A DNA stretch of 64,000 bases, taken from positions 3,409,501 through 3,473,500 of the forward strand of contig NC_009523.1 in assembly GCF_000016665.1 (NCBI RefSeq). Direction: 5' to 3'. This stretch comes from Roseiflexus sp. RS-1. Lineage in GTDB: Bacteria; Chloroflexota; Chloroflexia; Chloroflexales; Roseiflexaceae. The translations under genes were made by a program, and so were the position numbers. The notes under the pieces are model-generated. The model was not told the DNA's origin and made no database searches. It saw nothing but the letters and a program-made list of their open reading frames with translations. Every line of letters begins with the position of its first letter. The first letter of the stretch is position 1. Of this stretch, positions 35,233-43,200 are shown one piece after another.

Positions 35233-35317
35233 ACTCAACCTGGCTTTCCTGTGATTCACCGAAAACAGGTTTCCCCATTGTAGCCGGTGCCCAAGAGATG
35301 TCAAAACCAGACCGACA

Positions 35318-35326
35318 TGCTATACT
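35318..35326 (+). promoter_or_regulatory. Extended -10 promoter of the phospho-signalling operon
   Basis: TATACT at 35321-35326 preceded by TGC. A weak ATGTCA at 35298-35303 is a possible -35 at 17 bases. Predicted start near 35333, about 30 bases before the TTG start codon of the first gene. Confidence 0.55.
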
Positions 35327-35362
35327 GGAGCCTGGACTGTATGCGTCAGGACGGAGGACGTA

Positions 35363-36661
35363 TTGAACACGCACTGTCCATTCTGCGGCGCACCAGTTGG
35401 GATGCGTTCACGCTTCTGCTCGATGTGCGGGCAGTTGCTGCCGCCATCTTCCCTGCCTGCTGCATCTCCGCCGCCACCTATCGACAACTGGCCAGTCGAG
35501 GGTGCATTAGCCAATGGAAAGCGATTGCAGGTCACCGGCGATGCACTTGATCTGCGTGAGCTGATAAACGTGGTAGAATCGAGTGTGCGATGGTGGCAGC
35601 GCGGGTTGAAGAGCAGCGACGCGATGACTCGCGATCAGGCGGCGCACGCGATTGACGAGTTGTCGCACATTCTGCGCAGCCTTTCTCAGCAACTGGCGCA
35701 TGGACGTTCGACCATCCGCATCACGAGAAGACTGCCGGCGCTGCGCCGATTCGATATCGCCTGTCCATCGTGTGGCAGCGGTAATCGGGCTGGCGCACGT
35801 TTCTGCCAGCGTTGCGGCGCGCTACTCAACACAGCGCCAGGGTATGGAGCCGGGCACGTGCAATCACGCACACTTACATTCACATTTGCAGCGCGCACCG
35901 ACACTGGTCGCGTGCGCCACCAGAATCAGGATTCGGTGTATACCGGCGTGATCCCGCTACCCGACGGTCAACAGGCGTATCTCTGCCTGGTTGCGGACGG
36001 AATGGGCGGCGCAGCCGCCGGTGAGTACGCCAGTCGACTGGCAGCCGATGTCAGTCGCGCCTACCTGGAACAGGAATCCGCCAGTCATCCGCCTGCGACC
36101 GATGCAGCCTGGCAGGCATTGCTGCGCGATGCAGTGCGTGCCGCCAACCGCCAGATCTACAATGCCGCGCGCACTGATGCGGCGCGACGCGGGATGGGAA
36201 CGACGCTGACCATTGCGCTGCTGGTCGGTGATCGCCTGCATATTGCATCGGTTGGCGACTCGCGGGCATATTTGCTGAATACCGACGGCGTGACCGACGA
36301 TGGCGCTCCTTCTGCCCAGTTGACATCAGACCATAGCCTGGTGGCGCGGCTGGTGGATATCGGCCAGTTGACGCCGGAGCAGGCGCGGGTGCACCCGCAA
36401 CGGAATATCCTGTATCGCTCGATTGGCACCGATCCGTCGGTCGATGTTGATACACGCTCGGAAGCGCTCGAACCGGGTGACATCGTTCTGCTCTGCTCCG
36501 ATGGATTGGTCAACCATGTCAGCGATGAAGAGATCGCTCAGATCGCACTTGGCGAAACCGACCTGGATCGTGCGGTGATGCGTCTCGTCAGCCTGGCAAA
36601 TGAGCGCGGCGGACGCGACAATATCAGCGTCGTGATGGTGCGCGTCTCGGGTGAACGGTAA
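35363..36661 (+). CDS. PP2C-type protein phosphatase with two zinc ribbons
   Basis: A 432-residue protein starting at TTG 35363 with GGAGG five bases upstream. Zinc ribbon 1 is at residues 5-22 (CPFC...CSMC), a helical linker runs 60-130, zinc ribbon 2 is at about 132-155 (CPSC...CQRC), and a PP2C Ser/Thr phosphatase domain fills 180-430. All metal-site motifs are present: RHQNQDSV, VADGMGG (near 212), VGDSRAYL, CSDGLVNH and GGRDNISV, so it should be active. It would dephosphorylate substrates of the kinase two genes on. No membrane helix. It is first in a five-gene same-strand cluster. Confidence 0.92.
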   Translation: MNTHCPFCGAPVGMRSRFCSMCGQLLPPSSLPAASPPPPIDNWPVEGALANGKRLQVTGDALDLRELINVVESSVRWWQRGLKSSDAMTRDQAAHAIDELSHILRSLSQQLAHGRSTIRITRRLPALRRFDIACPSCGSGNRAGARFCQRCGALLNTAPGYGAGHVQSRTLTFTFAARTDTGRVRHQNQDSVYTGVIPLPDGQQAYLCLVADGMGGAAAGEYASRLAADVSRAYLEQESASHPPATDAAWQALLRDAVRAANRQIYNAARTDAARRGMGTTLTIALLVGDRLHIASVGDSRAYLLNTDGVTDDGAPSAQLTSDHSLVARLVDIGQLTPEQARVHPQRNILYRSIGTDPSVDVDTRSEALEPGDIVLLCSDGLVNHVSDEEIAQIALGETDLDRAVMRLVSLANERGGRDNISVVMVRVSGER

Positions 36662-36703
36662 ATGCGTATTGGTTCGGCTTCTGCGTGTGATGGTAACGTA
36701 ACC

Positions 36704-38497
36704 ATGCCTGTCATTTGCCAGTCGTGCGGCGCAGTCAACCGTGATAACGCGCGTTACTGTCTGCACTGCGCGCAACCGCTTGCACCCGCCCGCCCGTCAC
36801 CCGATGATCAGGCCTGGCTGACGGCGCGATTGCTCGCCGATCCGTCCGTTTCAGTCTCACCGCCAGCGGATATGCCCACCCCTGGCGTAACGCTATCTTC
36901 CGCGCACGTGTACGATGTTCCAGTCCTCGCCGCTCCGGTGCGCTTAGATGAGGAGTCTGCTATGAATGCGCCGCCTGTTGACCCGAAAACGCCGTCGTTG
37001 TTTGCAGGACGGTACGAAATCATCGCTGCGTCCGGCGAAACGGTCGAGGCGCTGGATCGCCAGCCCTGGCGACGCTGCTGGTCGTGCGATACAACCTTGA
37101 ATGAACCAGGCGAGGCATACTGCACCCAGTGCGGCGCCGCGCTCGACGGTCGTCGTTATCGTGGTCTGCTGACAGGCGCCACGCCTGCCGGGCTTGCACT
37201 CGTTCCGCAGGTGACCGATCCTGCTGCGCGCGCCTTCCTCCCGCCGATCTGGGATCAGGTCAGCGACGGTGATCAAACGCTGACCCTCACCCCGGATATC
37301 CCTTCGACGCCTCCTTCGCTGCCACTCAGCGAACTTCAGGCGCTCGTCATCGGACGGGATCTGGCGCGGTTGCTGACCCTTCTGCACGGTCAGGGGCTTG
37401 CGCTTGGCGCGCTCGAACCGGACGATCTCGACATCTCACCGGCGCACACTGTGCGGCTGCGTAATGCCCCTGGATTGCACCGGGCCGCAGAAGGCGATAC
37501 GACCACCGATCTGATCCACCTGGCAACATTGCTCGAAGCGCTGACGGCAACGCCGCGCACGACCAGGCGGCTCGATGAGGAAGACATCACCCTGGACGTA
37601 ATGCCAAACCTTGCCGATCTGCTGCGCGAAGTACGCACAGGGCGCCTGACCGATCCGGCAGAACTGGCGCAACGGTTTGATCTCCTCATTGCGTACCATA
37701 CCGCGCCTGCGCCGCTGCGCGTCCGGTTTGGCGCAGCCACCGACACTGGCATGGTGCGTGATCTGAACGAAGATAGTCTGCTGGCGCTCGATCTCCGCCT
37801 GATCCGCCGCAACCAACCGCGTACCTGGAGTCTGTTCATTGTCGCCGATGGGATGGGCGGTCACAGCGCAGGCGAGGTAGCCTCGGATCTGGCGTTGCGC
37901 GGCGCGCTGGAAGTGGTGCAACGCGAATACCTGATGCCAACCGTTGATACCGATGCGCATGATGAAGAGGAGAATCTCCGCGACGTCGTTCGCCGCGCCA
38001 TTCTCCAGGCAAATGAGTATGTGGTGCGCGAGGCGCGCAGCCGCGGGAACGACATGGGCACGACGATAACGATGGCGCTGGTCGCAGGTGATCGCGCAAT
38101 CATCGGAAACGTTGGCGACAGTCGAACGTACCTGATGCGGGAAGGAAAACTGCGGCGCGTCAGTCGCGACCACTCGCTGGTGCAGCGCCTGGTTGATCTC
38201 GGTCAGATTACGCCTGACGACGTGTACACGCATCCGCAGCGCAATGCAATCCTCCGATCACTGGGCGACAAACGCGACATTGAGGTTGATATCTTCGTCG
38301 AACGGTTGCGTCCAGGCGATGCCCTGCTACTGATGAGCGACGGTTTGTGGGAAATGGTGCGCGATGAGCGGATGGCAGAGATCATCGCTGCGCACCACGA
38401 TCCGCAGGCGGCGTGCAAGGCGTTAATCGACGCTGCGAATGCCGCCGGCGGCGATGATAACATTACCGTGATTCTGGTGCATGTAGAAGCATACTGA
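36704..38497 (+). CDS. PP2C phosphatase fused to zinc ribbons and a degenerate kinase-like region
   Basis: ATG 36704 (MPVICQSCGAV) is preferred because the sister proteins begin directly with a zinc ribbon; ATG 36662 is an alternative. Residues 4-22 form zinc ribbon 1. Around residues 100-350 is a kinase-like region that starts with GRYEII, is interrupted by a second ribbon (CWSC...CTQC), and continues with helices like a kinase C-lobe (GRDLARLLTLLHGQGLALGALEPDDLDISP). The HRD and DFG motifs are absent, so it is probably a pseudokinase. The last ~250 residues are PP2C with DGMGG, VGDSRTYL, MSDGLWEM and GGDDNIT intact. Next gene 8 bases away. Confidence 0.85.
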   Translation: MPVICQSCGAVNRDNARYCLHCAQPLAPARPSPDDQAWLTARLLADPSVSVSPPADMPTPGVTLSSAHVYDVPVLAAPVRLDEESAMNAPPVDPKTPSLFAGRYEIIAASGETVEALDRQPWRRCWSCDTTLNEPGEAYCTQCGAALDGRRYRGLLTGATPAGLALVPQVTDPAARAFLPPIWDQVSDGDQTLTLTPDIPSTPPSLPLSELQALVIGRDLARLLTLLHGQGLALGALEPDDLDISPAHTVRLRNAPGLHRAAEGDTTTDLIHLATLLEALTATPRTTRRLDEEDITLDVMPNLADLLREVRTGRLTDPAELAQRFDLLIAYHTAPAPLRVRFGAATDTGMVRDLNEDSLLALDLRLIRRNQPRTWSLFIVADGMGGHSAGEVASDLALRGALEVVQREYLMPTVDTDAHDEEENLRDVVRRAILQANEYVVREARSRGNDMGTTITMALVAGDRAIIGNVGDSRTYLMREGKLRRVSRDHSLVQRLVDLGQITPDDVYTHPQRNAILRSLGDKRDIEVDIFVERLRPGDALLLMSDGLWEMVRDERMAEIIAAHHDPQAACKALIDAANAAGGDDNITVILVHVEAY

Positions 38498-38505
38498 GTA
38501 TCATT

Positions 38506-39879
38506 ATGCGGTGTCCTGTCTGCAACGCATCCAACCCCGACGGCGCTCCGTTCTGTGCTGAATGTGGCGTGCGCCTGACCGATACCCTCACGTCGCCATC
38601 GGTTGCACCACCCACTGGCACGCCTTTGCAGCAAACCATTCTGCAGGGTCGTTATATTATCGAGGAAAAACTCGGGCAGGGCGGCATGGGCGCCGTCTAT
38701 CGCGCCCGTGATCTGCGGCTCAGCACGGTGAACTGGGCGATCAAAGAGATGAGCCAGGCACAGATCACCGGATCGCTGGAACTCCAGCAGGCGCGCGCGG
38801 CATTCCGGCATGAAGCCGAACTGCTTGCCGGTCTTTCGCATCCGGGGCTGCCCAAAGTCGTCGATCATTTCGAGCAGGATGGAAAAGCCTACCTGGTGAT
38901 GGAGTTCGTGCCGGGTTCATCGCTGCTTGCGCTGGCGCGCCGTGAGGGTTTGCCCTTCCCCCTGCCGCGCGTCCTCGATTGGGCAAAACAGATCTGCGAG
39001 GTGCTGGACTACCTGCACAGCCGACCATCGCCCATCATCTTTCGCGACTTGAAACCGGCAAATGTGATGCTCACGCCTGAAGGACGCATCAAACTGGTCG
39101 ATTTTGGCATTGCGCGCCTGTTCAAGCCCGGCAAAGAGCGCGACACGCAGGCGTTCGGTACGCTCGGCTACAGCGCACCGGAGCAGTATGGGCAGAGTCA
39201 GACCGATCCGCGATCCGATATCTATTCACTCGGCGTCCTGCTGCATCAACTGTTGACCGGCTACGACCCGACCAGCACCCCCTTCCGCCTGCCGCCAGCC
39301 AACCAGGTGAACCCATCGATCCCGCAGCATATCTCCGACGCCATCGCCCGGGCGGTCAACCCGGACCCTGACGCTCGTTTCTCCAACGTGCGGGCCTTCC
39401 GTGATGCGCTGCTCGGCGGGCAACCGGTGATCCTTCAGACACCGGTGACAGAGGCAGTGCAATCCAGAATGGCGATTCCAGAGGCGATCGGGCAAACGAT
39501 TCCAGTGTCTTCCCCAATTTCCGGTTCAGCCGCAGTGCAACCGCCAGCCGTCCCTTCGCCGACAACCGGCGTTGCGAATGTCGGGCGCTGGATCGGCATC
39601 GCCAGTGTGCTTATGATGGGACTGGCTACCGTGATTGTGGTCGCCGGCGCTGCAACCGAAGATTCCGATAGCGCGCTTACAGGTTTTGGCGTTCTGATGG
39701 CGTTCCTGCCATTTGCAACGGGACCGATTGCCTTCCTGCTCGGTTTGATCGCGTTGTTCTCCCCTGCGACAGCACAAACGCTCAAGGGGCGGCAACACGC
39801 AACAATTGCTGTCGCTACTGGACTGGCGACCGGCTTGCTCTGCTGCGTCATTTTCATCGTTGGAGGGGGAAGCAGCTAA
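38506..39879 (+). CDS. Ser/Thr protein kinase with N-terminal zinc ribbon and C-terminal membrane helices
   Basis: A 457-residue protein. Residues 3-20 form a zinc ribbon (CPVC...CAEC). The Hanks-type kinase domain (about 48-310) has GQGGMGAVY, the Lys in NWAIKEM (about 79), FRDLKPAN (about 179; Phe replaces His of HRD), VDFGIAR (about 200) and the APEQYGQ of the activation segment end. Residues 360-455 contain three membrane helices resembling the DUF4190 small membrane domain. Thus the kinase is membrane-bound and opposed by two PP2C phosphatases. Substrates are likely to include the FHA and VWA proteins of the cluster. Confidence 0.93.
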   Translation: MRCPVCNASNPDGAPFCAECGVRLTDTLTSPSVAPPTGTPLQQTILQGRYIIEEKLGQGGMGAVYRARDLRLSTVNWAIKEMSQAQITGSLELQQARAAFRHEAELLAGLSHPGLPKVVDHFEQDGKAYLVMEFVPGSSLLALARREGLPFPLPRVLDWAKQICEVLDYLHSRPSPIIFRDLKPANVMLTPEGRIKLVDFGIARLFKPGKERDTQAFGTLGYSAPEQYGQSQTDPRSDIYSLGVLLHQLLTGYDPTSTPFRLPPANQVNPSIPQHISDAIARAVNPDPDARFSNVRAFRDALLGGQPVILQTPVTEAVQSRMAIPEAIGQTIPVSSPISGSAAVQPPAVPSPTTGVANVGRWIGIASVLMMGLATVIVVAGAATEDSDSALTGFGVLMAFLPFATGPIAFLLGLIALFSPATAQTLKGRQHATIAVATGLATGLLCCVIFIVGGGSS

Positions 39880-39963
39880 ACCGCACTCGATGGCTAGGGG
39901 TGCAACGATTCAGAATGGCATGGCGTCTAAGCGGTTAACGTTGCGGAGAGGGAGTGAAGGACG

Positions 39964-41202
39964 ATGAATACCGGCATAACGCTTACGTGCACCTGGGGAC
40001 GCGCACCGCTGGTTGCCAGCAAGGTTCCACAGGTCGCCTATCTGCTTATCGAAGCGCAGGCTGCGGCAATTGCCGAGAAAATGCCGCTCAATTTCTGCCT
40101 GGTGCTCGACCGCTCCGGGTCGATGCAGGGCGCCAAACTTGCGGCGCTGAAGGATGCCGTCAAACGGGTGATCGAAACCCTGACCCCGCAGGACATTGTT
40201 GCGATTGTGCTGTTCGACGACACCGTGCAAACGCTGGTTCCTGCGACGTTTGCCACCGACAAAGCGACGCTGATTGCACAGGTCGATGCCATCGAAGAAG
40301 CTGGCGGCACGGCGATGTCGGGCGGGATGGCGGCGGGTATTGTGGAACTGCGCAAGAACCATGACCCCGGACGTGTCGGGGCGATGCTGCTGCTGACCGA
40401 CGGGCAGACATGGGGTGATGAGGATCGTTGCCGCGCACTCGCCCAGGAACTCGCCCGTGATGGGGTGCGGATCACGGCCCTGGGTCTCGGCGCTGAATGG
40501 AACGAAGCGTTGCTCGACGATATTGCCGAAGCGACCGGCGGCATTTCAGACTACATCGCCGATCCGGCGCAGATCACGACGTTCTTCCAGCATGCAGTCC
40601 GCACAGCACAGGGAACGGTTGCCCGCGACGCACGTCTGTTGTTGCGTCTGGTGCGTGACGCAACGCCGCGCGCGGTTTATCGCGCCAGTCCTGTGATCGC
40701 CAATCTTGGCTACCAGCCAATCGGCGACAGTGAGATTGCCGTGCGGCTCGGCGCCATCGAGGCGGAGACACCGTCGAGCATCGTTGTCGATCTGATGGTT
40801 CCGGCGCGCGACGCGGGGAGTTTTCGCATCGCCCAGGCGGAACTTCACTACACGCCGGTTGGCGGCGCAGAACAGGTCGTCAAACAGGACCTGCTGCTCG
40901 AGTTCGTGACCGACCCGACTGCGTCGGCGTATGATCCGCGTGTGATGAATCTGGTCGAAAAGGTGACGGCGTTCAAATTGCAAACACGCGCGCTGGCTGA
41001 AGCAGAAGCCGGCAACCTGTCGGGCGCGACGCAAAAACTGCGCGCGGCTGCGACACGGTTGCTCGATCTTGGAGAACTTGAACTGGCGCAGAAAGTCTCC
41101 GAGCAGGCGGCGCATCTCGAACAGGGGCAGGCGATCAGCGCCGAAAATCAGAAAGAACTGCGCTATGCAACCCGTCGCCTGACGCAAAAACTCGAGGAAT
41201 AG
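39964..41202 (+). CDS. VWA-domain protein
   Basis: A 412-residue protein with a von Willebrand A domain at about 40-220. The MIDAS metal site is complete: DRSGS (D49, S51, S53), the Thr in GGTAMSG and the Asp in LTDGQTWGD. C-terminal half is beta-rich (about 225-330), then an all-helical tail (ATQKLRAAATRLLDLGELELAQK) . No signal peptide or zinc ribbon. VWA domains bind proteins in a metal- and sometimes phospho-dependent way; together with a kinase and PP2C this recalls the TerY-type VWA/PP2C/kinase triads. A strong GGAGAGGGAG ribosome site precedes ATG 39964. Confidence 0.88.
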   Translation: MNTGITLTCTWGRAPLVASKVPQVAYLLIEAQAAAIAEKMPLNFCLVLDRSGSMQGAKLAALKDAVKRVIETLTPQDIVAIVLFDDTVQTLVPATFATDKATLIAQVDAIEEAGGTAMSGGMAAGIVELRKNHDPGRVGAMLLLTDGQTWGDEDRCRALAQELARDGVRITALGLGAEWNEALLDDIAEATGGISDYIADPAQITTFFQHAVRTAQGTVARDARLLLRLVRDATPRAVYRASPVIANLGYQPIGDSEIAVRLGAIEAETPSSIVVDLMVPARDAGSFRIAQAELHYTPVGGAEQVVKQDLLLEFVTDPTASAYDPRVMNLVEKVTAFKLQTRALAEAEAGNLSGATQKLRAAATRLLDLGELELAQKVSEQAAHLEQGQAISAENQKELRYATRRLTQKLEE

Positions 41203-41228
41203 CCTCTTGAAGCATTCGGAGGATCGGT

Positions 41229-42809
41229 ATGATAACGTGTCCAACGTGCGGCGCTCTCAACGACCCGGTCAATCGTTTCTGTGACCAGTGTGGATCGCGG
41301 CTCGAACCGAGTGGTCCGATTCCGCAGGCATCAGCGCCCACGTTTCAGGCGCCACCCGTAGCGACAGCCCAGACCTGTCCCAACTGCGGTGCAACCGTCT
41401 TCCCCGGACAGGCGTTTTGTGAAGAGTGCGGCGCAGCCCTGACCGCAGTGGCGCCTCCTGCGGCAGCGGCGCCTCCTGTAGCAGCGCCGGTCAGTGTGGA
41501 TGCACCAACCATGATCGCGCCTGCGTCGATGCCGGTTGCGGGTTCGATCTGCCCATCCTGCGGTCATCAAACCATGCCGGGCGACCGGTTCTGTGATGCG
41601 TGCGGCGCAACGCTCGCACCGGCGCCATCAGTGGCAATCGCCGATGCACCGACCGCTGCGGCGCCTGAACCGCCGTGGTCGGTTCCTGCGCCCCCGCCTG
41701 CCGAGCCACCTGCGCCGCCGCCAACGCTGATCGAAGCAGCGCCCGCACCGATTCCACCCGCGCCGTCGGTCGAAGCAGCCCCTGCGCCGGTTCCACCTGC
41801 GCCGCCGGTCGAAGTGGCAGCGCCATCGCCTGCCCCCGCCGATGCGCAGGCGGAGTATGAAGCCAGACGCCAGGCGTTGCTCGACGAGATCGCAAAGCAG
41901 CAGAAGATTATCGAGCAATTGGAGCAGTTGCAGGCGACCTTCGGCGCTGCGACGCCCCACGCCGTCACCATTGCCCTGGCGGAAGCGCGTGAGGCGCTCG
42001 CCAGAGCGCAGACGGAACTCGACGCTCTGCAACCACCGCCGCCGCCCGTCGATCCGGCGGTCGTTGCGGCGCTCAACGATGAAATCGCAAAGCAGCAGAA
42101 GATTATCGAGCAACTGGAGCAGTTGCAGGCGACCTTCGGCGCTGCGACGCCCCACGCCGTCACGCTTGCCCTGGCGGAAGCGCGTGAGGCGCTCGCCAAA
42201 GCCGAAGCGGAACTGGCAGCGCTTGGCGTTTCACCTGCTGCTGCACCGGCGCCATCCGCTGCACCATCTGCGCCGGTTGCACCGCCTCCACCGGTTGCAC
42301 CGCCACCTCCGACGCCCATTGCGCCGCCTGCGCCAGCAGCAATGGAGATCGCCGCCCCGCCACCGTTCACCGCAGAACCGGTCGCTCCGCCGCCGGTTGC
42401 TCCCGCCGCCACACCCGATACGGCTGCAACGGTGACCTCGCCTCCGGCTGATTTTCTACCAGGCGCGACAATGCATATCCCTCCAGCCGGACCACGCCTC
42501 GTTTTCGATAACGGGGTAGGCGAAATTCCGGTTCCCATGGACAGACCGGAGATCACCATCGGGCGGGAAGACCCGATCAGCGGCATCCACCCGGAGATCG
42601 ACCTGACTCCGTTTGGCGGCGAGAGCGGCGGCGTAAGCCGTCAGCACGCGCGGCTGATCAGAAGCGGCGAACAGTGGTCCATTGTTGATCTCGGCAGCAC
42701 GAACTATACGCGGGTCGATGGCGTGCGGATCGAGCCGGGGGCGCCGCATCCGCTGAAAGATGGCGCACGCCTCCAGTTCGGACGCCTGACGGTGACGTTC
42801 AGGTTGTGA
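41229..42809 (+). CDS. FHA-domain protein with three zinc ribbons and duplicated coiled-coil
   Basis: A 526-residue protein. Three zinc ribbons occupy residues 4-22, 54-75 and 105-125. A Pro/Ala-rich region follows, then two copies of a ~48-residue helix pair (about 217-263 and 277-325) that share the string KQQKIIEQLEQLQATFGAAT, another Pro-rich linker, and an FHA domain at about 437-525 with IGRE, SRQHARL and DLGSTN, the motifs that bind phosphothreonine. It is expected to be the phospho-reader of the cluster, recruited by the kinase. The near-identical DNA of the helix repeats suggests recent duplication. Confidence 0.92.
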   Translation: MITCPTCGALNDPVNRFCDQCGSRLEPSGPIPQASAPTFQAPPVATAQTCPNCGATVFPGQAFCEECGAALTAVAPPAAAAPPVAAPVSVDAPTMIAPASMPVAGSICPSCGHQTMPGDRFCDACGATLAPAPSVAIADAPTAAAPEPPWSVPAPPPAEPPAPPPTLIEAAPAPIPPAPSVEAAPAPVPPAPPVEVAAPSPAPADAQAEYEARRQALLDEIAKQQKIIEQLEQLQATFGAATPHAVTIALAEAREALARAQTELDALQPPPPPVDPAVVAALNDEIAKQQKIIEQLEQLQATFGAATPHAVTLALAEAREALAKAEAELAALGVSPAAAPAPSAAPSAPVAPPPPVAPPPPTPIAPPAPAAMEIAAPPPFTAEPVAPPPVAPAATPDTAATVTSPPADFLPGATMHIPPAGPRLVFDNGVGEIPVPMDRPEITIGREDPISGIHPEIDLTPFGGESGGVSRQHARLIRSGEQWSIVDLGSTNYTRVDGVRIEPGAPHPLKDGARLQFGRLTVTFRL

Positions 42810-42811
42810 TT

Positions 42812-42842
42812 CTGGAAGGAATGCTTCCAGAGGCGGTTTTTT
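42812..42842 (+). terminator. Hairpin and T-run after the FHA gene
   Basis: A 7-bp stem CTGGAAG/CTTCCAG with a 5-base loop (42812-42830), then a short GC tract and TTTTTT at 42837-42842. It is placed where the five-gene operon should end. Confidence 0.6.
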
Positions 42843-43200
42843 CCGGCAGGCGCCTGCCTTTGTCTGAGATGAGCGGTTTTCTGCATTCCTATGCGCTTTT
42901 GCCTCTCATACCCCCAACCCCCTTCTCCCACACAGGGAGAAGGGGGCGTTTGTGCGTCCCGATGCCTGAAACGGGAGATGGCACGCAGGGGCTTCCAAAA
43001 AACCTGCCCCTGTGAGCATCCCCCAACCTCTTTCCCTCACAAGGGGAGAAGGGGGCGTTTGAGCGTCCTGAAGCCCAAAACGAAAGAAGAAACACAGGGA
43101 CTTCCCAAAAACCTGCTCCCGCAAGAGACAACAGCCTCCACAGTGGGGACTGGCAGGCGGTCTGCTGGCGTTCGACTCGAGAAACAATACATGCGCCTGC
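42843..43200. repeat. Intergenic region with two ~111-bp related units, no gene
   Basis: Two units starting at about 42909 and 43020 share CCCCCAACC, GGGAGAAGGGGGCGTTTG and a later CAAAAAACCTGC/CCAAAAACCTGC tract. No credible coding sequence. They resemble dispersed intergenic repeats containing GC hairpins. Confidence 0.65.

Follow-up and report, generated by a model that had tools for sequence, protein, structure and literature searches.

A five-gene phosphorylation module of Roseiflexus sp. RS-1 and its likeness to the archaeal ArnA-ArnB switch

The DNA analysed here is a stretch of 64,000 nucleotides (hereafter, the window) from the single-contig 5.80-Mb genome of Roseiflexus sp. RS-1, and coordinates refer to positions within it. 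The window carries five open reading frames (ORFs) on the same strand (35363-42809, forward), which we call A to E in their order, and which encode a PP2C phosphatase, a PP2C fused to a kinase-like half, a Ser/Thr kinase, a VWA protein and an FHA protein. A preliminary description, made from the letters of the sequence, had proposed this set of genes, and both the ORFs and their domains were confirmed: the five ORFs are genuine and together form a conserved module. The features of the locus are the following.

35298-35326, forward: weak promoter-like site (ATGTCA-17-TATACT with an extended -10) preceding A
35363-36661, forward: A, PP2C phosphatase of 432 residues with two zinc ribbons (35375-35428 and 35762-35815) and a TTG start
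36704-38497, forward: B, zinc ribbon, pseudokinase (with a ribbon inserted) and PP2C; first ATG at 36662
36983-37705, forward: pseudokinase part of B, with the ribbon insert at 37076-37132
38506-39879, forward: C, active Ser/Thr kinase of 457 residues, preceded by a zinc ribbon (38512-38565) and followed by a predicted transmembrane tail (39580-39876)
39964-41202, forward: D, ArnB-like VWA protein of 412 residues, with a split beta-sandwich, a VWA domain and a helical C-terminal domain
41164-41184, forward: motif YATRRLT in D, whose Thr403 is a putative phosphosite for the FHA domain
41229-42809, forward: E, three zinc ribbons (41238-41291, 41376-41429 and 41550-41603), linker and FHA domain (42552-42782), 526 residues
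42810-42842, forward: terminator-like hairpin (42810-42832) followed by a T run, plausible

The genes are separated by 42 (A-B), 8 (B-C), 84 (C-D) and 26 bases (D-E), in keeping with the gaps of 8-84 bases first reported, as long as B starts at the ATG in 36704, which its orthologues favour over the first ATG at 36662; with the latter, the A-B gap would be 0. The promoter-like site and the terminator that the five genes had been said to share were both located, but neither of them is statistically enriched. The former matches the consensus in only 9 of 12 positions, and four such sites were found against 2.1 expected from shuffled sequences, whereas the hairpin sits where a terminator would be expected, yet its folding is not exceptional (z of -1.6).

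Proteins A and B score 250.6 and 241.5 bits, respectively, against the Stp1-type PP2C model of NCBIfam (NF033484), above its cut-off of 230 in both cases, and the Asp residues of their PP2C metal sites are invariant across orthologues. The kinase-like half of B is predicted to fold like a protein kinase (VIA Z of 14.7 with YabT, and of 13-14 with PknG and PknB), and the Asp residues of the HRD and DFG motifs are retained in none of its 23 orthologues; judged from model and sequence, this half is a pseudokinase. Protein C matches Pkinase with 154 bits, keeps the catalytic residues Lys80, Glu103, Asp181 and Asp199 invariant in 20 orthologues, and ends in predicted transmembrane segments (residues 359-457). 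The segment of A between its two ribbons (35516-35755, about residues 52-131) is also well conserved, and has no match in Pfam.

Protein E combines N-terminal ribbons with a C-terminal domain that matches FHA and carries the phosphothreonine-binding residues. In E and its relatives the ribbons follow the spacing C-x2-C-x10-C-x2-C, as published for ArnA, the zinc-ribbon/FHA protein of Sulfolobus whose partner ArnB is a vWA protein (PMC12852372); when a short ribbon was used as the query, the ArnA chain was not among the matches. The linker of E contains a near-identical duplicated segment of 65 residues (41886-42230; EIAKQQKIIEQLEQLQATFGAATPHAVT...).

Zinc ribbons are found in four of the five proteins (two in A, two in B, one in C and three in E), with the VWA protein D as the only one devoid of them, just as the preliminary description had it. 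Across the genome, we counted 26 kinase, 28 FHA, 6 Stp1-like PP2C, 5 D-like VWA and 36 Zn_Ribbon_1 matches, and 8 of these 36 ribbons fall within the 7.4 kb of the five genes (0.13% of the genome). When the five VWA genes of the D family were placed at random, and a kinase, a PP2C and an FHA gene were required within 4.5 kb, at least two VWA genes were so clustered in 22 of 200,000 trials, against the two observed.

Protein D matches the VWA domain, and its AlphaFold2 model (mean predicted local distance difference test of 90.8, built from 25 sequences) was compared with known structures. The three best matches span almost the whole of D: 4fx5 of Catenulispora ranks first (VIA Z 38.1, 394 residues), followed by ArnB in the ArnAB crystal 8S05 (VIA Z 32.2, 370 of the 380 residues of ArnB) and, in third rank, ArnE (5a8j; VIA Z 27.2). 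A profile of D also retrieves ArnB by sequence (E 2e-19). The metal-ion-dependent adhesion site (DxSxS...T...D) is intact, with D49, S51, S53, T116 and D146 invariant in the 25 sequences. The nearest relative of D that was found, 98% identical, belongs to a metagenome-assembled genome of Roseiflexus.

With D as bait, 53 loci were compared, mostly from Chloroflexales. Roseiflexus, Chloroflexus, Oscillochloris, Viridilinea and their relatives share the order A-B-C-D-E, while Candidatus Chloroploca and several others show A-B-D-E. In the D tree, these kinase-less rows are nested among the others at several places, which suggests that C was probably lost more than once. The genomes with C-less clusters (G094, G190 and G201-G206, some of them incomplete) contain best matches to C of about 45% identity, as compared to 57-58% in the same-order genomes that have C. 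Two of them, G094 and G190, retain a further cluster that includes a kinase (L162 and L166), and this kinase might supply the missing activity. A different arrangement is seen in Herpetosiphon aurantiacus (L078, 6894-12738), where three VWA paralogues surround the pseudokinase-PP2C gene (VWA-B-D-VWA) and the FHA gene E is absent, and likewise in other Herpetosiphon.

Over the phylum sample, D-like VWA proteins occur in 64 of 201 genomes. Outside the five-gene clusters of Chloroflexales, other Chloroflexota provided 57 FHA-bearing loci, 31 of which read kinase-PP2C-VWA-FHA, and 10 of which contain the five gene types rearranged as PP2C-kinase-(pseudokinase-PP2C)-VWA-FHA, the pseudokinase being assigned here by length. 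Ribbons are present on the FHA proteins (50/57) and on all the long PP2Cs of the pseudokinase-PP2C type (17/17), and on none of the VWA proteins (0/56). Clustering of the flanking genes of related loci revealed no constant effector, and the recurrent neighbours reflect lineage synteny only: an AI-2E-type transporter and an XRE-cupin regulator flank the module in Chloroflexaceae relatives, whereas the flanks in Roseiflexus are different.

Beyond Chloroflexota, the module was found on plasmids of cyanobacteria and Deinococcus. In Gloeothece, Nostoc linckia and Tolypothrix, it reads VWA, zinc-ribbon (ZnR) FHA protein, PP2C and kinase, and a Trichormus plasmid holds a version without the kinase; the cyanobacterial PP2Cs are preceded by kinase-like remnants, and a ZnR-kinase is in the cluster wherever kinases are present. 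In D. radiodurans DRR11 and Deinococcus sp. QL22 the order is VWA, ZnR-kinase, ZnR-FHA and PP2C. The N-terminal halves of the PP2Cs from both groups were judged pseudokinase-like by eye. On these plasmids the FHA proteins and kinases bear N-terminal ribbons, and the VWA proteins none. The row DRA0331-DRA0334 of D. radiodurans (L179), with a VWA protein, a ZnR-kinase, a ZnR-FHA protein and a PP2C with a kinase-like N-terminal half, seems to belong to this bacterial module, from which it differs in gene order, in its ribbon-free PP2C and in the tail of the VWA protein. In an oxyR mutant, DRA0331 (VWFA), DRA0333 (Zn-finger plus FHA) and DRA0334 (PP2C) were induced together by 3.7-4.3-fold (PMC2225504), and none of the papers found deals with these genes as a unit. 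Conservation supports one co-inherited phospho-signalling circuit, as the preliminary description had proposed, with the order kept across Chloroflexales and the core kept across phyla. The genes are not scattered in relatives, the result that it had named as contrary to its proposal, except for kinase C, which several lineages lack.

Several additional arrangements were noted. Plasmids of Deinococcus, Meiothermus and cyanobacteria contain a recurrent pair of a MerR regulator and an ArnB-like VWA gene (L112, L113, L116 and L177), and no annotated FHA neighbour of these VWA genes was seen within the stretches read (Deinococcus, Picosynechococcus, Meiothermus and Cyanobacterium sp. HL-69). In three cyanobacterial plasmids (L114, L178 and L181), a serine hydrolase and further vWA proteins are encoded just upstream of the VWA-FHA-PP2C module, together with an ARC6/PARC6 family protein in L114 and L178, and it is possible that they form a larger unit with it. 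In the Roseiflexus genome itself, a second and minimal kinase-PP2C-VWA-ZnR.FHA cluster (L092, G000:C1:1777250-1782450) is of a type common in other Chloroflexota, and a region densely packed with a PP2C, several kinases, a D-like VWA and FHA domains, with zinc-ribbon motifs in some ORFs (L095, G000:C1:4236000-4250000), is a possible third phospho-signalling cluster. At another site (L093, G000:C1:2276967-2279920), a D-like VWA gene is divergent from a kinase gene bearing a zinc ribbon and an FHA domain, and the tail of this VWA protein (FGVQKTVRL) no longer carries the Thr of the TRxL motif considered below. Just 3′ of E, the window contains a 100-base element in two copies (42911-43119; 80% identical, spaced by 109 bases), whose core GGGGAGAAGGGGGCG is found 116 times in the genome when one mismatch is tolerated, as compared to once for the reversed control, and thus represents a dispersed repeat family.

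For the common docking code that the preliminary description had inferred from the zinc ribbons, the archaeal pair offers an experimental precedent. In the 8S05 structure, ArnA attaches through its zinc finger to the beta-sandwich and the helical domain of unphosphorylated ArnB, docking at the beta1-beta2 loop, the linker helix and the RHB of the vWA protein, and phosphorylation of several Thr of the helical domain of ArnB by ArnC is followed by binding of the FHA domain, resulting in a tight complex (PMC12852372). The phosphatase PP2A counteracts this phosphorylation in Sulfolobus (PMC12852372; PMC7472852). We consider it reasonably probable that the operon described here is a bacterial counterpart of this switch, equipped with a writer and erasers of its own. 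Protein D, which had been taken for a metal-binding scaffold, would more likely be the hub and the main substrate, and the ribbons of E, joined in Chloroflexales by those of A, B and C, would be docking tags that, by analogy with ArnA, keep reader and enzymes loosely attached to D; a ribbon-free D fits what would be expected of such a docking platform. The kinase C, presumably anchored in the membrane, would phosphorylate Thr residues in the helical C-terminal domain of D, whereupon the FHA domain of E would bind the phosphothreonine and lock a tight D-E complex, exposing or hiding surfaces for a downstream target. Finally, the PP2Cs A and B would reverse the phosphorylation, the phosphatase of B being probably regulated by its pseudokinase half. 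Since no constant effector gene adjoins the module, its output is probably exerted in trans, and the roles of ArnA and ArnB in Sulfolobales, which act on motility and DNA-damage genes (PMC12852372, PMC10470591), together with the co-induction of the DRA genes in the oxyR mutant, make stress or nutrient signalling a likely one.

As for the residue that would be phosphorylated, sequence conservation makes Thr403, in the C-terminal sequence YATRRLT, the best candidate in D for FHA binding. Non-identical proteins of the D family were divided by the presence of an FHA gene within 700 bases (95 with and 50 without), the counts not being independent and many of the FHA-less cases corresponding to copies of true D in Herpetosiphon. 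Among the 95 FHA-adjacent proteins, 91 retain Thr403 and 92 a Leu at position +3, the latter being present in 27 of the 50 without FHA; the remaining C-terminal Thr residues of D are less constant (54-84% of the FHA-adjacent set). Several of the Thr-x-x-Leu motifs in the helices of D may be structural. The conserved Thr121 of A and Thr301 of B also stand in TRxL motifs, but no argument is built on them, since Thr301 is located in the C-lobe of the pseudokinase and may have a structural role.

A number of observations weigh against this interpretation. Neither D nor any other protein of the genome matches the Pfam family ArnB_C (PF18677) at E <= 0.01, which is why we call D ArnB-like and not an ArnB orthologue, and 4fx5 and the ITIH proteins share much of the fold of D, so that the fold alone cannot specify its function. 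The segments of the beta1-beta2 loop and linker of D that match the docking site of ArnA are no more conserved than average, which leaves ribbon docking on D as an argument by analogy. Of the 50 VWA proteins with no FHA gene beside them, 33 likewise retain the Thr of the TRxL motif, and Thr403 may consequently be structural, while in the cyanobacterial and Deinococcus members the VWA tail is different (KTVKM, KTLKI). The absence of kinase C from the cluster of several lineages means that another kinase must act there. In the wider Chloroflexota loci, ribbons were found on only 3 of 50 kinases and 2 of 53 free PP2Cs: they are general on the reader and the pseudokinase-PP2C, and mainly confined to Chloroflexales on the kinase and the free PP2C. 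Finally, to our knowledge, there is no binding or phosphorylation result for any of the bacterial members.

A wider formulation of the proposed counterpart of the ArnA-ArnB switch, which we put forward tentatively, regards the modules of Chloroflexota, cyanobacteria and Deinococcus as a bacterial system of its own kind, related to ArnAB, in which a ribbon-free vWA hub recruits its kinase, its phosphatase, the pseudokinase-phosphatase and the FHA reader through a common zinc-ribbon code, the pairing of ribbon-FHA and vWA proteins spanning bacteria and archaea. Other explanations were weighed as well. It is unlikely that the operon is a TerY-P-like triad with an added FHA protein, that is, a metal- or stress-sensing unit possibly engaged in anti-phage or tellurite-type defence; the preliminary description had compared it with TerY-type triads. 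The adjacency of VWA, PP2C and Ser/Thr kinase genes and the zinc ribbon on the kinase are shared with such triads (PMC11090510, PMC7159879), and PADLOC kinase models, PD-T4-6 among them, assign C a score, which is usual for generic Hanks kinases. However, the kinase of TerY-P bears a ZnR or OB fold C-terminally (PMC11090510), whereas the ribbon of C is N-terminal and its C-terminus is predicted to be transmembrane. Moreover, D has the three-domain architecture of ArnB and an FHA protein is its constant partner, and the recurrent neighbours obtained by clustering the flanks of related loci include no tellurite, restriction or defence gene, a comparison that does not extend to distant genes. We rejected this assignment on the position of the ribbon in the kinase and the architecture of the VWA protein, ArnAB being the closer match.

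An analogue of the threonine phosphorylation pathway of type VI secretion (PpkA-PppA-Fha), where the switch would drive the assembly of a membrane machine, would account for the same set of activities (kinase, PP2C, FHA reader and VWA) and for the predicted membrane anchor of C, and PpkA has a VWA domain at its C-terminus (PMC1262709); it is nevertheless very unlikely. There, the VWA is fused to the kinase and tied to secretion genes, whereas here it is a separate ArnB-like protein with no constant machine genes nearby, and the pathway was rejected on the score of E against the TagH model TIGR03354 (27.3 bits, with a cut-off of 120.25). Nor do we know of zinc-ribbon tags in that pathway. Bacterial FHA proteins encoded beside a kinase and a PP2C, such as GarA and OdhI, can be phosphorylated, and their FHA domain then folds back. 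By this precedent, and by a weak sequence match of the FHA domain of E to OdhI and GarA, C would phosphorylate E, whose FHA domain would then fold back and release a metabolic enzyme, D and A/B having other roles. The lack of any Thr outside the FHA domain of E that reaches 85% conservation (32 orthologues) led us to reject such self-inhibition, and the constant presence of D beside E also speaks against this reading, which is very improbable. It is also improbable that the ribbons bind nucleic acid and that D and E together regulate transcription as a complex under the control of phosphorylation. ArnA of S. islandicus has been reported to bind DNA with ArnB and to repress DNA-damage genes (PMC10470591), but the structural paper sees no hint of direct DNA binding by either protein, the zinc finger being engaged by ArnB (PMC12852372), and the presence of ribbons also on the enzymes, where DNA binding is less sensible, argues against this explanation.

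Among known systems, ArnA-ArnB (8S05; PMC6509490, PMC12852372), presented by its authors as the first archaeal Ser/Thr/Tyr phosphorylation cascade known in some detail (PMC6509490), is the one that the module most resembles: a hub with a split beta-sandwich, an intact metal-ion-dependent adhesion site and a Thr-bearing helical C-terminal domain, a reader with N-terminal zinc ribbon and C-terminal FHA, and a Ser/Thr kinase and a phosphatase in both systems. The bacterial version differs in having the kinase and phosphatases within the operon, with PP2C instead of the archaeal PP2A, in the pseudokinase-PP2C fusion, in the ribbons that the enzymes also bear and in a hub that ArnB_C does not recognise. 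The same authors noted that the ArnB architecture is elsewhere mostly found outside such circuits of multiple phosphorylation. The individual pieces of the module are of known kinds. The assertion of the preliminary description that no such system had been described was too strong, since an archaeal operon with a calcineurin-like phosphatase, ZnR-FHA and vWA-beta-barrel proteins has been published (PMC7016017). This operon also joins phosphatase, ZnR-FHA and vWA genes, but its phosphatase is of another superfamily and no operon kinase is mentioned, whereas the bacterial module has PP2Cs and a kinase. No description of this gene set, of a bacterial kinase-PP2C form of ArnAB or of a multi-ribbon version was found in the open-access literature. 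Docking of the ribbons on the VWA protein, if it occurs, would explain why generic zinc ribbons front unrelated signalling enzymes, would provide a simple sequence rule linking the kinases and phosphatases of bacteria to the hub that they serve, and would suggest a phospho-switch common to archaea and bacteria. In any case, the occurrence of the ArnB architecture beside ZnR-FHA proteins, kinases and PP2Cs in three bacterial phyla makes the prediction drawn from the archaeal system testable in bacteria, for example with DRA0331-0334 of D. radiodurans.

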